From contig NZ_CP117425.1 of the NCBI RefSeq assembly GCF_030687295.1, positions 1 through 64,000 on the forward strand: a DNA stretch of 64,000 nucleotides. The letters run 5' to 3'. This stretch comes from Pseudomonas beijingensis. GTDB taxonomy: Bacteria; Pseudomonadota; Gammaproteobacteria; Pseudomonadales; Pseudomonadaceae. This document shows positions 21,670 to 52,277 of the stretch, piece by piece. Made by a program: the position numbers and the translations under genes. The notes beneath the pieces were generated by a model. That model did no database searches and was not told where the DNA came from. It worked only from the letters and a program-made list of their open reading frames with translations. Each line of letters begins with the position of its first letter. Position 1 is the first letter of the stretch.

Positions 21670-21911
21670 GCAAGATAAATTTTTAAAAATTTATCGATTT
21701 TGATTTAACCGTTTGATCTAAAAAGAGATTTATTTTATGGCGGCGCAGTGTCTCCAGCTCGCGTGGGTCGCGAGGTGGACCAAGGAGAAGGAAGTGCTAG
21801 GGAGGATCAGCAGGTCCAGCGCAATTGCAGACCTTCGGAGAGAGGGAGTTCAAAGCAGAATTATGGGCTTCTCGATCATTCCCACCACCACGCTTCCGCC
21901 AGCCCACACAT

Positions 21912-21999
21912 CCTTGCGCCTTTGCCTACAACAACGCCAGAACCCACCTGCTTGTACGCCCTGTCCCCGGGTTCTATTGTTTTCTGCCACTGCCCATCA
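21912..21999 (+). repeat. Copy A of an ~88-bp repeated module, upstream of GNAT gene
   Basis: From CCTTGCGCCTTT to CTGCCACTGCCCATCA, this segment is about 87% identical (about 12 differences) to 24990-25078, which precedes the DUF6124 leader. The differences do not favour third codon positions in any frame, so the module does not look coding. It ends 13 bases before the GNAT start codon. The preceding 21670-21911 stretch is AT-rich near ohr and then featureless; I see no gene there. Confidence 0.75.
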
Positions 22000-22012: not shown

Positions 22013-22552
22013 ATGAAACGGCCACGCATTAGCGATTTTAAACATCAGATGTTCCGCTCGACCGCAATGCAGCTCGCTAAAGAGTTTTTGGTGGACGATC
22101 CTAGGGCACTAGCGGAGAAGGGTATTGATGTTGAGCGGATAAGGTACGAGCCGATAGCTCAAGAGGCGCTGGAACAATGCTATCTATGGGGCTCAGAGGC
22201 CCAACTTTATCCATGGGAGGATATACCTGGGTGGAAGAATCGCGACGGGAAAGCGTTTGACCTTTCTCTGTGGTATGACCGAGAGTTATGTGGACTTTGC
22301 TTTGCCACTCCAAAATCAAGCACCTTGTCCATCAAGGTAGTCCTCCTGGAGGGCAAGCCTGACGTCACTCATCCTCTAAAGGGTGAAGTTGCCGGTTTAG
22401 TATTGATCGCGATCAGCCGATACGCGCGAATGCTGAAGCTTAGCGAGATTGAGATTTTTGAGCCTGACCCTGGGGCCGTCCAGTGGTACCAGTATCTGGG
22501 CTTCGATTTCGACGACCAGCGGCGCCTTGTTATAGCGGTGAACGAGGCATAA
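22013..22552 (+). CDS. GNAT-like N-acetyltransferase
   Basis: This 179-residue protein starts at ATG 22013 (MKRPRISDFKHQMF). Its C-terminal half resembles a GNAT acetyltransferase: a strand-helix region (GEVAGLVLIAISRYARML) followed by IEIFEPDPGAVQWYQYLGFDF, like motif B of the fold. Donor and acceptor are unknown. Base composition is visibly lower in GC than in the flanking core genes, suggesting horizontal acquisition. A small gene starts two bases after its stop. The upstream ~88 bp is a repeated module shared with the DUF6124 locus. Confidence 0.65.
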   Translation: MKRPRISDFKHQMFRSTAMQLAKEFLVDDPRALAEKGIDVERIRYEPIAQEALEQCYLWGSEAQLYPWEDIPGWKNRDGKAFDLSLWYDRELCGLCFATPKSSTLSIKVVLLEGKPDVTHPLKGEVAGLVLIAISRYARMLKLSEIEIFEPDPGAVQWYQYLGFDFDDQRRLVIAVNEA

Positions 22553-24191: not shown

Positions 24192-24214
24192 CAGCGAAGG
24201 CAAGTTGTTACGGG

Positions 24215-24589
24215 TTACTCGACTTGCGACAGCTTGGCATCGTCGCAACCGGCAGCACGGCACTCGCGCTCGACAGCCTTGAGTATGACGATACGCGCCT
24301 CGGTCTTCTCATTGGCACAGTCCAGGTAGAGCAGGCCATCGTTGGAACAGGCGCTGTCACGATTTTTGATCCACTGGATTTGAGCGGCTTTCACCTTTTT
24401 CTTTTGCTCCGGGTTCAGAGCACTCATCGTCTTCTTGTATTGATCGTTGATGTCCTGATCCGACTGAACCATTTTCAGCGACGCGCAATAGGTTCTGTCA
24501 TAGGCGTTTCTAGGGTTATCGCAACTCATCGCAGATGCCGATGCGGATGCCATTGCCAGCAATGCCCCAACCAACAAAGACTTGATCAC
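24215..24589 (-). CDS. Secreted LprI/DUF1311-like protein
   Basis: This 124-residue protein has a signal peptide (MIKSLLVGALLAMASASASA) and a mature part rich in Cys. The central region DINDQYKKTMSAL...KVKAAQIQWIKNRDSAC is typical of DUF1311/LprI proteins, some of which inhibit lysozyme. Conserved Trp (QIQWIKNRD) and Cys residues are present, suggesting disulfides in the periplasm. Its function here is not established. It is monocistronic, ended by the hairpin at 24162-24191. Confidence 0.78.
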   Translation of the reverse strand: MIKSLLVGALLAMASASASAMSCDNPRNAYDRTYCASLKMVQSDQDINDQYKKTMSALNPEQKKKVKAAQIQWIKNRDSACSNDGLLYLDCANEKTEARIVILKAVERECRAAGCDDAKLSQVE

Positions 24590-24739
24590 TCACTTCTCTC
24601 CCTGAATGGCCTCTATTGATTAGAGGTCGCGGCGTGAATTTATCATGAGGGTTGTAGAACAATGAAGCGGATCCGATGGCCTTCAGCTCCTCGATTGCAG
24701 CGGCGCTTATCCACACCATCGATCCATAACGCAGTCCCT

Positions 24740-24850
24740 TGTGGCGAGGGGATTTATCCCCGCTGGGTTGCGCAGCAACCCCAAAAATCTCCATGCAACC
24801 AAAAGTCTGTGGCGAGGGAGCTTGCTCCCGCTGGGCTGCGCAGCAGCCCC
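24740..24850. repeat. Two REP elements upstream of DUF6124 locus
   Basis: Direct-orientation copies lie at 24740-24782 (GTGGCGAGGGGATTT type) and 24808-24850 (GTGGCGAGGGAGCTTGC type). In the surrounding gap (24590-24989) I see no gene. A perfect DnaA box lies at 24707-24715, and a 6-bp hairpin (CCTCTA/TAGAGG) at about 24610-24626. Confidence 0.75.
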
Positions 24851-24989
24851 AAACCATCCAAACACATTCCTACAGACCAACCCGTGCCAGCTACCCCGTC
24901 CCTTCTCAAGTATCCCTCTAGCCTGAACTACAGGTCATAAACACCACATGTTCATCCTCCCACCCCAACCCGTCCACCAGGCTACCCAA

Positions 24990-25078
24990 CCTTGCGCCTT
25001 TACCTACAACTACGCCAGAATCCGCCCGCTTGTGCACCTTGCCCCTGGGTTCTATCGTTTTCCTGCCACTGCCCATCA
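24990..25078 (+). repeat. Copy B of the ~88-bp repeated module, before DUF6124 leader
   Basis: This is the partner of 21912-21999. It runs directly into the structured leader, with CCACT...AGTGG forming a small hairpin at its end (about 25066-25082). Both copies sit upstream of small accessory genes in the same orientation. Confidence 0.75.
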
Positions 25079-25284
25079 GTGGTCGGGTTTAGTAGCCCGA
25101 GGTATTTAGTAAGGTGCAAAGCTCTATCAATCAGGTATTTCCATGCCTGTATTTGATGGCGGTTGTGCGCAGGGCGCCCTCGGGCGCGCCGGCTTGCTAA
25201 GTCCCCGGTCTACTAACCTGCGTACAGCTGCCACCCCTTGTTTAGTAGCTAGAGGGTTGCGGCTTCAACTATAGGACTTAGTAC
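25079..25284 (+). ncRNA. Putative structured 5' leader of the DUF6124 gene
   Basis: The 206 bases before the DUF6124 start codon contain several nested stems. A hairpin TCGGG/CCCGA (25083-25100) displays TTTAGTAG in its loop. A 9-bp stem P1 (25165-25173 with 25217-25225) encloses P2 (GCGCC/GGCGC, loop CTCG, 25174-25187) and P3 (CCGG/CCGG, 25189-25208), making a three-way junction. TTTAGTA occurs at 25088, 25105 and 25241, and CTTAGTA at 25277-25283, between AGGA (25273-25276) and the ATG. The complement CTACTAA is at 25210-25216 and could pair with any of them. The pairing was deduced by eye. A protein-binding DNA repeat is an alternative reading. Confidence 0.5.
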
Positions 25285-25644
25285 ATGTTCAAACCTACAC
25301 CGAATCCGCCAGAGGCGGACCAAGCTCCCCCGCGCACCAAATCCAAGGCCAAAAAGCACGACGAAGCCACCAAACGCGTCCTGGATCACTACCTGCTCCC
25401 AAAACCGGAAAAGTCCGAAGATACGTCCCAACCGGGCCAGCTCTTCACCGTCGCAAAAAACGCCGACAACGAATCCCTCCTCGCCAACCTCAGCGAAACC
25501 CTGGCGGCAGCCGACGCGATGGTCAGCAACCTGGCCTTCGATCTGGAAGGTCAGCGCCGCCACATCCTTCTCGGCATCCAGCAATTGATTGAGCTGAGTT
25601 CATTGCTGGCTAACCGGGTGTTGGATAACGTTGATCCGCGATAG
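25285..25644 (+). CDS. DUF6124 family protein
   Basis: This 119-residue soluble protein begins MFKPTPNPPEADQ, typical of the DUF6124 family found in several copies in many fluorescent pseudomonads. The first ~60 residues are Pro/Lys/charged and probably disordered. The second half (ESLLANLSETLAAADAMVSN, RRHILLGIQQLIELSSLLANRVLDN) forms two to three helices. No catalytic motif is visible, and I know of no function. Translation starts at ATG 25285 after AGGA, with a CTTAGTA motif in between. It is followed by a terminator, so it is a single-gene unit with an unusually long leader. Confidence 0.8.
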   Translation: MFKPTPNPPEADQAPPRTKSKAKKHDEATKRVLDHYLLPKPEKSEDTSQPGQLFTVAKNADNESLLANLSETLAAADAMVSNLAFDLEGQRRHILLGIQQLIELSSLLANRVLDNVDPR

Positions 25645-25663
25645 CAAATAAACATCCTTCCCA

Positions 25664-25701
25664 AAAGCAAACCCGACATCTTGCGTCGGGTTCGCTTTTT
25701 T
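25664..25701 (+). terminator. Terminator after DUF6124 gene
   Basis: The stem AAAAGCAAACCCGAC / GTCGGGTTCGCTTTT (one mismatch) is followed by a T run. Confidence 0.88.
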
Positions 25702-25794
25702 AACGCTCCAGAAACACGAAAGCCCGCAGATATTTCTATGAATGCCCGTGATCTTGCGGATTTTTGCCCATCACGCATATTTCCGAGCAAAAAA

Positions 25795-25832
25795 AACGGG
25801 CCTGCATTCCCACGCAGCCCCGTTTTTTTCAC
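25795..25832 (-). terminator. Terminator after metQ
   Basis: A run of A, the imperfect stem ACGGG.CTGC / GCAG.CCCGT and a run of T lie 13 bases beyond the metQ stop. The symmetrical A and T runs would allow bidirectional function. Confidence 0.85.
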
Positions 25833-25844
25833 CACCTGATCAGC

Positions 25845-26618
25845 TCAAAACGCCGGCAAAACCGCCCCTTTGTACTTCTCAAGAATAAAAGCCTTCACCT
25901 CCGGCGTATGCAAAGCCGCAACCAGCTTCTTCATCGCCTCACTGTCCTTATCATCCTCACGGGCAACCAGAATGTTCACATAAGGCGAGTCACTACCCTC
26001 AATCACCAACGCATCCTTGGAAGGATCAAGCTTGGCCTCCAACGCATAGTTGGTGTTAATCAACGCCAGATCCACCTGAGTCAGCACCCGCGGAATGGTC
26101 GCCGCTTCCAGCTCGCGGAACTTCAAATCTTTTGGATTCTCGGTGATGTCCTTGGTCGTCGACAGGATGTTGTTCGAATCCTTCAACTTGATCACCCCAG
26201 CCTTCGCCAGCAGCAACAGCGCACGACCACCGTTAGTAGCGTCGTTCGGGATCACTACGTTGGCACCGCCCGGCAGTTCGGTAAGTGCCTTGTACTTGCT
26301 GGAATAAGCGCCCAGGGGTTCCAGGTGCACACCGGCCACGCTCACCAGGTGCGTGCCCTTGGCCTTGTTGAACTCATCCAGGTACGGCTGGTGCTGGAAG
26401 AAGTTGGCGTCCAGGCGCTTTTCCGCAACCTGCACGTTGGGCTGGATGTAGTCGGTGAAGACTTTGACCTTGAGGTCTACGCCTTGCTTTTCCAATGCCG
26501 GTTTGACGAATTCGAGGATTTCCGCGTGCGGCACCGGGGTGGCCGCGACGGTCAGGGTGTCGGCGGCGTGGGCGGAAAACGCTGCGGCGGCAGCGAAGGC
26601 AACCAGTAGTTTCTTCAT
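25845..26618 (-). CDS. metQ: Methionine ABC transporter substrate-binding protein MetQ
   Basis: MetQ captures methionine in the periplasm for the MetNI importer. The 257-residue NlpA-family product has a cleavable signal peptide (KKLLVAFAAAAAFSAHA) without a lipobox Cys, followed by the conserved TPVPHAEILEFVKP, YIQPN, NFFQHQPYLDEFN and VIPNDATNGGRALLLL. It is the last gene of the minus-strand metN-metI-metQ operon, 79 bp after metI. By position it corresponds to PA5505. Confidence 0.93.
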   Translation of the reverse strand: MKKLLVAFAAAAAFSAHAADTLTVAATPVPHAEILEFVKPALEKQGVDLKVKVFTDYIQPNVQVAEKRLDANFFQHQPYLDEFNKAKGTHLVSVAGVHLEPLGAYSSKYKALTELPGGANVVIPNDATNGGRALLLLAKAGVIKLKDSNNILSTTKDITENPKDLKFRELEAATIPRVLTQVDLALINTNYALEAKLDPSKDALVIEGSDSPYVNILVAREDDKDSEAMKKLVAALHTPEVKAFILEKYKGAVLPAF

Positions 26619-39253: not shown

Positions 39254-39383
39254 GAATGGCTGGTGAAGCCCTTCAATGCTCCTATGTTGTGTTAAGTGTT
39301 GGCAGATATCTGGACCCCGCCCTAGCGGTCCGGAACTTGGACCCCGAACTTCCCCCTCCCCATAAGAAGTCCGGGGTTTTTTT
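39254..39383 (+). ncRNA. ersA: Small regulatory RNA ErsA
   Basis: In Pseudomonas the sRNA ErsA lies between polA and engB (as Spot 42 does in enterobacteria) and is about 130 nt long. Here the gap holds an AlgU-like promoter, then a hairpin (GACCCCGCCC..GGTCC region, about 39313-39333), an unpaired C-rich stretch CTTCCCCCTCCCC (39349-39361) suited to pairing with Shine-Dalgarno sequences, and a terminator (CCCCGAACTT / AAGTCCGGGG followed by eight T, ending about 39384). ErsA is known in P. aeruginosa for repressing algC and affecting envelope stress and biofilm. Boundaries are estimated. Confidence 0.72.
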
Positions 39384-39398
39384 TGCCTGCGATTTGGC

Positions 39399-52152: not shown

Positions 52153-52277
52153 GCTGCACAGCCCGAGGAGGGCCGGTGCATGACCAGGGGGCCGGGACGT
52201 TCTGACGGATATGCGTCGGAGTGACCTACGGGCACAAGGGGTGCCTGCGAAAGGGCCGGGTCAGGTAAAAGCTGTGA

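Follow-up and report, generated by a model that had tools for sequence, protein, structure and literature searches.

The DUF6124 gene in the window (the whole stretch of 64,000 nucleotides that was analysed) is preceded by a C4 antisense RNA, a kind of RNA first known from phages. The leader is very probably a C4-type antisense unit that silences its own DUF6124 gene, and we put the probability of this reading at roughly 0.85. Searching the window against Rfam gave a match to RF01695 (C4 antisense RNA) at 25152-25238, with 80.2 bits against a gathering score of 45, and a match to RF03163 (c4-a1b1) at 25052-25103, with 51.1 bits against a gathering score of 46.7. The leader thus belongs to known RNA families, contrary to the initial annotation, which knew of no described RNA motif with its features.

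Anatomy of the leader

The features of the unit are collected in Table 1. We named the two antisense segments of the C4 RNA J (junction segment) and L (P3-loop segment). According to PMC5320573, b' covers the ribosome-binding site and a' is the specificity segment; L would correspond to b' and J to a'. The predicted fold of 25152-25238 is a three-way junction (z -4.25), and the fold of the whole leader was better than those of 200 out of 200 shuffles (z -4.59). A three-way junction had already been proposed in the initial annotation and agrees with this fold, but its P1 stem has 17 pairs rather than the 9 described.

The motifs on which the annotation was built lie where it placed them: TTTAGTA at 25088-25094, 25105-25111 and 25241-25247, CTTAGTA at 25277-25283, CTACTAA at 25210-25216, AGGA at 25273-25276, the ATG at 25285, and a hairpin of TCGGG (25083-25087) with CCCGA (25096-25100). 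TTAGTA occurs seven times in the window when both strands are counted, compared to a shuffle mean of 2.2, and none of 100 shuffles reached seven. The proposal that all four copies in the leader compete for CTACTAA was abandoned. The 12-nt P3 loop at 25193-25204, overlooked before, is a second antisense segment whose targets are the copies at 25105 and 25277, so the four copies are split into two J targets and two L targets. In all nine aligned leaders (the window, L040-L044, L046, L048 and L071), TTAGTAG is found at both J targets, whereas the TTAGTA ahead of the ATG is kept in only two, and at most 6 nt can pair with CTACTAA at this start-codon site. In L041 and L042, this site has changed and pairs more favourably with the P3 loop (-16.9 vs. 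-14.9 kcal/mol). The resemblance of J and L targets is peculiar to the window locus. The downstream L target (25274-25283) reaches almost to the ATG.

A consensus promoter scan over 24200-26400 returned no promoter-like site; the candidate promoter in Table 1 was found by reading. Terminator-like hairpins are present at 25083-25100, which is the hairpin displaying the J target, and at 25132-25149. Both lie within the leader, and termination ahead of the C4 is conceivable. The upstream module (25065-25140) also resembles isrK RNA (RF01394), with 26.1 bits, under the cut-off of 50. Elsewhere in the window, Rfam matches were found to the Pseudomon-1/ErsA sRNA (39276-39392, 138.4 bits) and to ivy-DE (52181-52271, 92 bits).

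Table 1. Features of the C4 unit in front of the DUF6124 gene, in window coordinates
Feature	Position	Strand	Basis or remark
Upstream DNA box CTACAACTACGCCAGAATCCGCC, role not assigned	25004..25026	+	Also found in some other units
Candidate promoter TTGTGC, 17 nt, TATCGT	25030..25058	+	By reading; RF03163 match starts at 25052
c4-a1b1 module, the upstream target, two hairpins	25052..25103	+	RF03163
J upstream target TTAGTAG, in the TCGGG/CCCGA hairpin loop	25089..25095	+	7/7 complementary to 25210-25216
L upstream target ATTTAGTAAG	25104..25113	+	9 pairs including G-U by script, a tenth by reading
C4 antisense RNA	25152..25238	+	RF01695, predicted fold, pair counts
C4 stem P1	25157-25173/25217-25233	+	
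C4 stem P2	25174-25178/25183-25187	+	
C4 stem P3	25188-25192/25205-25209	+	
Antisense segment L, the 12-nt P3 loop CUUGCUAAGUCC	25193..25204	+	Complementarity to targets
Antisense segment J, the junction CUACUAA	25210..25216	+	Complementarity to targets
J downstream target TTAGTAG	25242..25248	+	7/7 complementary; 9/9 aligned leaders
L downstream target GGACTTAGTA, overlapping the AGGA ribosome-binding site	25274..25283	+	10 pairs, one G-U
DUF6124 gene, 119 aa	25285..25644	+	PF19619, E 1.3e-28

C4 units are numerous in Pseudomonas

The chromosome from which the window comes (6,449,812 bases, one contig) contains 29 C4 matches, all above the gathering score, 24 DUF6124 matches, and 25 c4-a1b1 matches, 11 of them above the cut-off. 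Of the DUF6124 matches, 22/24 follow a C4 at a distance of no more than 500 bases; 21 of the 29 C4s are followed by DUF6124 in this way, and the other 8 are not. The two remaining DUF6124 matches are a gene at 3244316 that lacks a C4 and a fragment at 96041. One C4, L011, has no downstream frame by the rule used, leaving 28 downstream proteins, of which Pfam assigned 21 to DUF6124 and 1 to DUF3077. The others are mostly small and without a Pfam family.

Across 59 Pseudomonas genomes, this one included, C4 was found in 54, with 1015 matches when up to 61 candidates were scored per genome (median 17, maximum 54); 26 of these genomes have at least 20 matches. DUF6124 is present in 47 of the 59, and the two counts rise together from genome to genome (Spearman 0.88). 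All five C4-less genomes also lack DUF6124, as do seven genomes that carry C4. Beyond Pseudomonas, C4 is sparse. It was detected in at least 15 of 115 genomes of the order (34 candidates scored per genome) and at least 7 of 185 genomes of the class (22 candidates scored per genome), the own genome being included in both counts, and outside the genus there were at most 6 copies per genome among the candidates scored.

G049 was used as a second genome because it has the most C4 copies; its set comprises 55 units, 52 of them above the cut-off. Three of its 51 downstream frames, of 38 aa or less, were left out, and the remaining 48 proteins gave 32 DUF6124, 3 Bro-N and 2 DUF3077 matches in Pfam. 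By analogy, the Bro-N domains behind these C4s recall the antirepressor position of phage C4. The upstream box CTACAACTACGCCAGAATCCGCC, with five mismatches or fewer, accompanies 13/29 units of the own genome and 20/55 of G049, and 0/20 outside the genus.

The C4 fold covaries among the 29 units of the own genome. In their alignment, 95.7% of cells are paired and 17 of 27 pairs have changed on both sides; none of 500 shuffles matched this on any of five measures, and the paired share fell to 33-45% when the structures were slid along the alignment. P3 is the weakest stem, with 86.2% of cells paired and one pair with a double change. Since the 29 C4s are related paralogues, the shuffle count is not to be read as a probability. 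The initial annotation was right about a structured RNA whose complementary segments are conserved, and the check it proposed, covariation of P1-P3 and of the heptamers in related leaders, came out in its favour.

Separated and incomplete units were also seen. The unit's upstream DNA, together with the a1b1 hairpin's first half, recurs as an 83% copy at 21880-21999 of the window, just ahead of an ATG at 22013 (a 180-aa frame without a Pfam family). The promoter of this remnant may now serve a different gene. At L069 (24-112, 1440-1500), the C4 lies about 1.3-1.4 kb from the gene, with J and L targets kept beside the ATG; the gap looks like an insertion that naturally separated the C4 from its target. 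L198 (G000:C1:2670055-2670103) and L199 (1860855-1860904) are c4-a1b1 matches below the cut-off with no C4 match nearby.

C4s mostly match the targets of their own unit

To compare each C4 with its own targets and those of other units, we took the longest complementary run of J or L with the upstream and downstream stretches, in own and in permuted units. In the own genome, J found at least 6 nt upstream in 29/29 units and downstream in 28/29. L found at least 6 Watson-Crick pairs upstream in 23/29 and at the ribosome-binding region in 23/29, or 28/29 when G-U pairs were allowed. The corresponding counts for G049 were 52/55 and 51/55 for J, and 36/55 and 41/55 (50/55 with G-U) for L. The mean complementarity within units was unmatched by 20,000 permutations for J and L, at both sites and in both genomes. 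The segments are variable: all P3 loops are distinct (29/29 and 55/55), and J occurs in 15 sequence types among the 29 own units and 31 among the 55 of G049. Six units have the junction address CGACTAA in common.

J and L both reached at least 6 downstream for 23/29 cognate combinations against 1/812 non-cognate ones in the own genome, and for 40/55 against 9/2970 in G049. When targets were ordered by the sum of their duplex energies, the cognate one came first for 25/29 own C4s and 43/55 in G049. Some cross-talk is therefore possible, since the cognate target did not rank first for the other 4 and 12 C4s. With the stem flanks included in the loop, the energy for the own unit at the ribosome-binding region ranked first in only 12/29; six of the 29 own units have fewer than six consecutive Watson-Crick pairs of the loop at this region, and pairing there is poor in L024. 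Judged by complementarity, the two addresses would jointly restrict each C4 largely to its own gene, and the units are probably insulated from each other in the cell.

The same relationship was seen in a set assembled from the protein side, consisting of 80 of the 390 matching DUF6124 loci from 19 genomes. A C4 lies 43-55 nt ahead of the start codon in 78 of the 80; the remaining two are L091, which offered only 95 bases of upstream sequence, and L069 with its distant C4. Every one of these 78 loci has J runs of 6 nt or more both upstream and downstream (78/78), and L runs of 6 or more Watson-Crick pairs occur in 65 at the ribosome-binding region and in 39 upstream. Outside the genus, a sample of 20 of the 30 C4 places found there gave J matches of at least 6 nt in 19 upstream and 18 downstream, and L matches at the ribosome-binding region in 19. 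Self-matching addresses are thus general to C4 units, and what sets Pseudomonas apart is how many units there are and which gene lies behind them.

We also counted pairs of units with the same loop: 1/144 within genomes compared to 111/2859 between genomes, a value as low in 100 of 5000 label shuffles. This count is confounded by orthology and was set aside as evidence for selection for differing loops within a genome.

A syntenic locus with altered loop and targets

L044 and L046 occupy the same locus as the window unit. Their metQ-side flank is 93-94% identical to the window, and in L046 the lprI side is 96% identical as well. The loop, the upstream loop target and the target at the ribosome-binding site are all altered here, while J and the J targets are unchanged. 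A loop of the window type (as in L040) would pair poorly with the new sites (-4.4 kcal/mol at the ribosome-binding site and -4.1 to -4.3 kcal/mol upstream), compared to -11.1 and about -9 kcal/mol for the new loop. The new loop pairs with the old target at the ribosome-binding site just as well as with its own (-11.1 kcal/mol each). As it fits old and new targets alike, the change shows that pairing was kept but does not demonstrate a new specificity at this locus. The best-matching other leader is 88.8% identical; the change may have been stepwise or a conversion from a paralogue.

The DUF6124 protein and its surroundings

The structure model of the 119-aa DUF6124 protein (mean pLDDT 71.3, pTM 0.46) is a two-helix hairpin, with helices modelled at 22-37, 62-84 and 90-114 and a low-confidence N-terminus that appears disordered. 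A search of a viral structure library with this model gave no match with an E of 0.001 or below, and a plasmid search gave no match to DUF6124. The 28 downstream proteins matched only nameless families in PHROGs, and PADLOC returned no defence-system match.

The window unit lies between an lprI-like gene and a metQ-like gene (the latter by reading), with no phage genes seen beside it. The leader matches two phage records, and the protein matches one of 50,697 (EU982300), which opens with a C4-DUF6124 unit next to prtR. In the own genome, the unit L015 also adjoins prtR. We compared 31 prtR-type loci from whole genomes with the C4 model, L204 being represented by the 193 bases ahead of the gene only. 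A C4 was present at two of them besides EU982300, L201 in the own genome and L203 in G039. The idea that DUF6124 is a partner of prtR-type repressors was dropped on this count, and the juxtaposition was judged a local insertion.

Three DUF6124 genes without C4 lie near HTH genes. L196 (G000:C1:3244316-3244501) is divergent from a gene encoding HTH_3 and Peptidase_S24 domains, and those in L232 and L233 neighbour weak matches to HTH proteins of that type. In L232 (945-1658), a DUF6124-type frame is directly followed by a small frame that by reading resembles the DUF3077-like proteins downstream of other C4s. The proteins downstream of C4 often carry P[ND]PP near the N-terminus (19/28 in G000, the own genome, and 34/51 in G049). 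In L154 the motif precedes a Bro-N domain, and dissimilar proteins thus have a common short start.

Proposed mechanism and alternatives

Judging from the layout of the unit, each C4 most likely represses translation of its own gene. A single transcript starting near 25064 would contain the upstream target, the C4 and the downstream target over the ribosome-binding site. RNase P would excise the C4, as in phages P1 and P7, and both segments would then pair with their matching sites and block the DUF6124 ribosome-binding site, L covering that site and J providing a second contact, presumably also in trans. The initial annotation's suggestion that the leader controls ribosome access to the start codon is the likely outcome of such pairing. 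A CCA is found near the C4 3' end in 28 of the 29 own units. PMC5320573 describes RNase P cleavage of C4 for P1/P7 and reports A. baumannii read coverage consistent with processing of C4-like RNAs.

The strongest alternative is a bistable leader acting in cis, in which the upstream site pairs with the C4's own segments and undoes the C4 fold, giving a closed state and a C4-releasing state. Minimum-energy folds of the leaders show J paired with the upstream site in 21/29 own units and 36/55 of G049, the window leader itself folds this way, and the C4 P1 stem forms in only 7/29 and 15/55 whole-leader folds. However, pairing in trans needs the identical complementarity, equilibrium folds disregard the order of transcription, and 8/29 and 19/55 leaders do not fold so. 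We think the odds are against such a switch, which could also act in addition to repression by the excised C4.

The variety of loops, every one distinct in both genomes, could also mean that the chromosomal C4s mainly provide stored immunity to phages under C4 control, with the own gene as a side target; C4-like RNAs may target incoming phages, according to PMC5320573. This is improbable, since nearly all units hold a matching target at both sites. A structured leader ahead of a start codon could in principle be a ligand-binding riboswitch, a reading made very improbable by the curated antisense family to which the sequence belongs, by the covariation of segments and targets, and by the variability of loop and junction (29 loops and 15 junctions in 29 units), which would be expected to be conserved as a ligand pocket. 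Equally hard to credit is the initial annotation's other suggestion that several near-identical heptamers within 206 bases are sites for a DNA-binding protein, since the sequence varies by unit but matches the local C4, with none of 20,000 permutations as good.

Relation to known systems

Dispersed paralogues with an antisense RNA each are found in the Ibs/Sib and Ldr/Rdl type I toxin-antitoxin systems. In contrast to these, the C4 of Pseudomonas is encoded on the same strand as its gene and upstream of it, and DUF6124, with 119 aa and a modelled two-helix hairpin, is no small hydrophobic peptide (hydrophobicity by reading).

The C4 of phages P1 and P7 (RF01695 and RF03163), known as a phage immunity device, has the same fold and two antisense segments and is likewise encoded upstream of its target gene; as laid out in PMC5320573, it too has an upstream target and a downstream target over the ribosome-binding site. 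According to PMC8546580 and PMC8201110, C4 represses Ant synthesis in P1, and icd expression is apparently needed for ant. The Pseudomonas units differ in being chromosomal and present in many copies, and in their target gene, DUF6124 (PF19619 being its only family match) instead of icd/ant. Multi-copy chromosomal C4 is known from A. baumannii, where PMC5320573, in its account of Group 1, lists 21 C4-like sRNAs with variable a' in one chromosome. That account leaves their targets open, whereas the Pseudomonas units match their own downstream gene. C4 had been predicted in Pseudomonadales, among others, by Weinberg et al. 2010, as stated in PMC5320573 (the 2010 paper itself is PMC2864571). Our literature search on C4 antisense RNA, DUF6124 and DUF3077 found a DUF3077 pseudogene mutation and no report of C4-DUF6124 units present in Pseudomonas in many copies. 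The RNA family itself has been described before; what appears to be new is the multi-copy, privately addressed C4-DUF6124 arrangement in Pseudomonas, with its scale and specificity.

More tentatively, and with less than even odds, many Pseudomonas chromosomes may carry a domesticated C4 family with tens of members (up to 54-55) that act as self-contained private silencers, with selection separating the combined addresses, an upstream cis decoy setting the release of C4, and loss of C4 turning a DUF6124/DUF3077-type protein on. If this is true, nature would here provide many antisense regulators insulated from one another. A bacterial genus thus carries C4 units in large numbers, each probably acting on the gene that follows it. 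Since C4 specificity lies in two short segments, in which changes are directly legible, target choice, cross-talk and DUF6124 function can be tested on dozens of natural antisense pairs within one genome.
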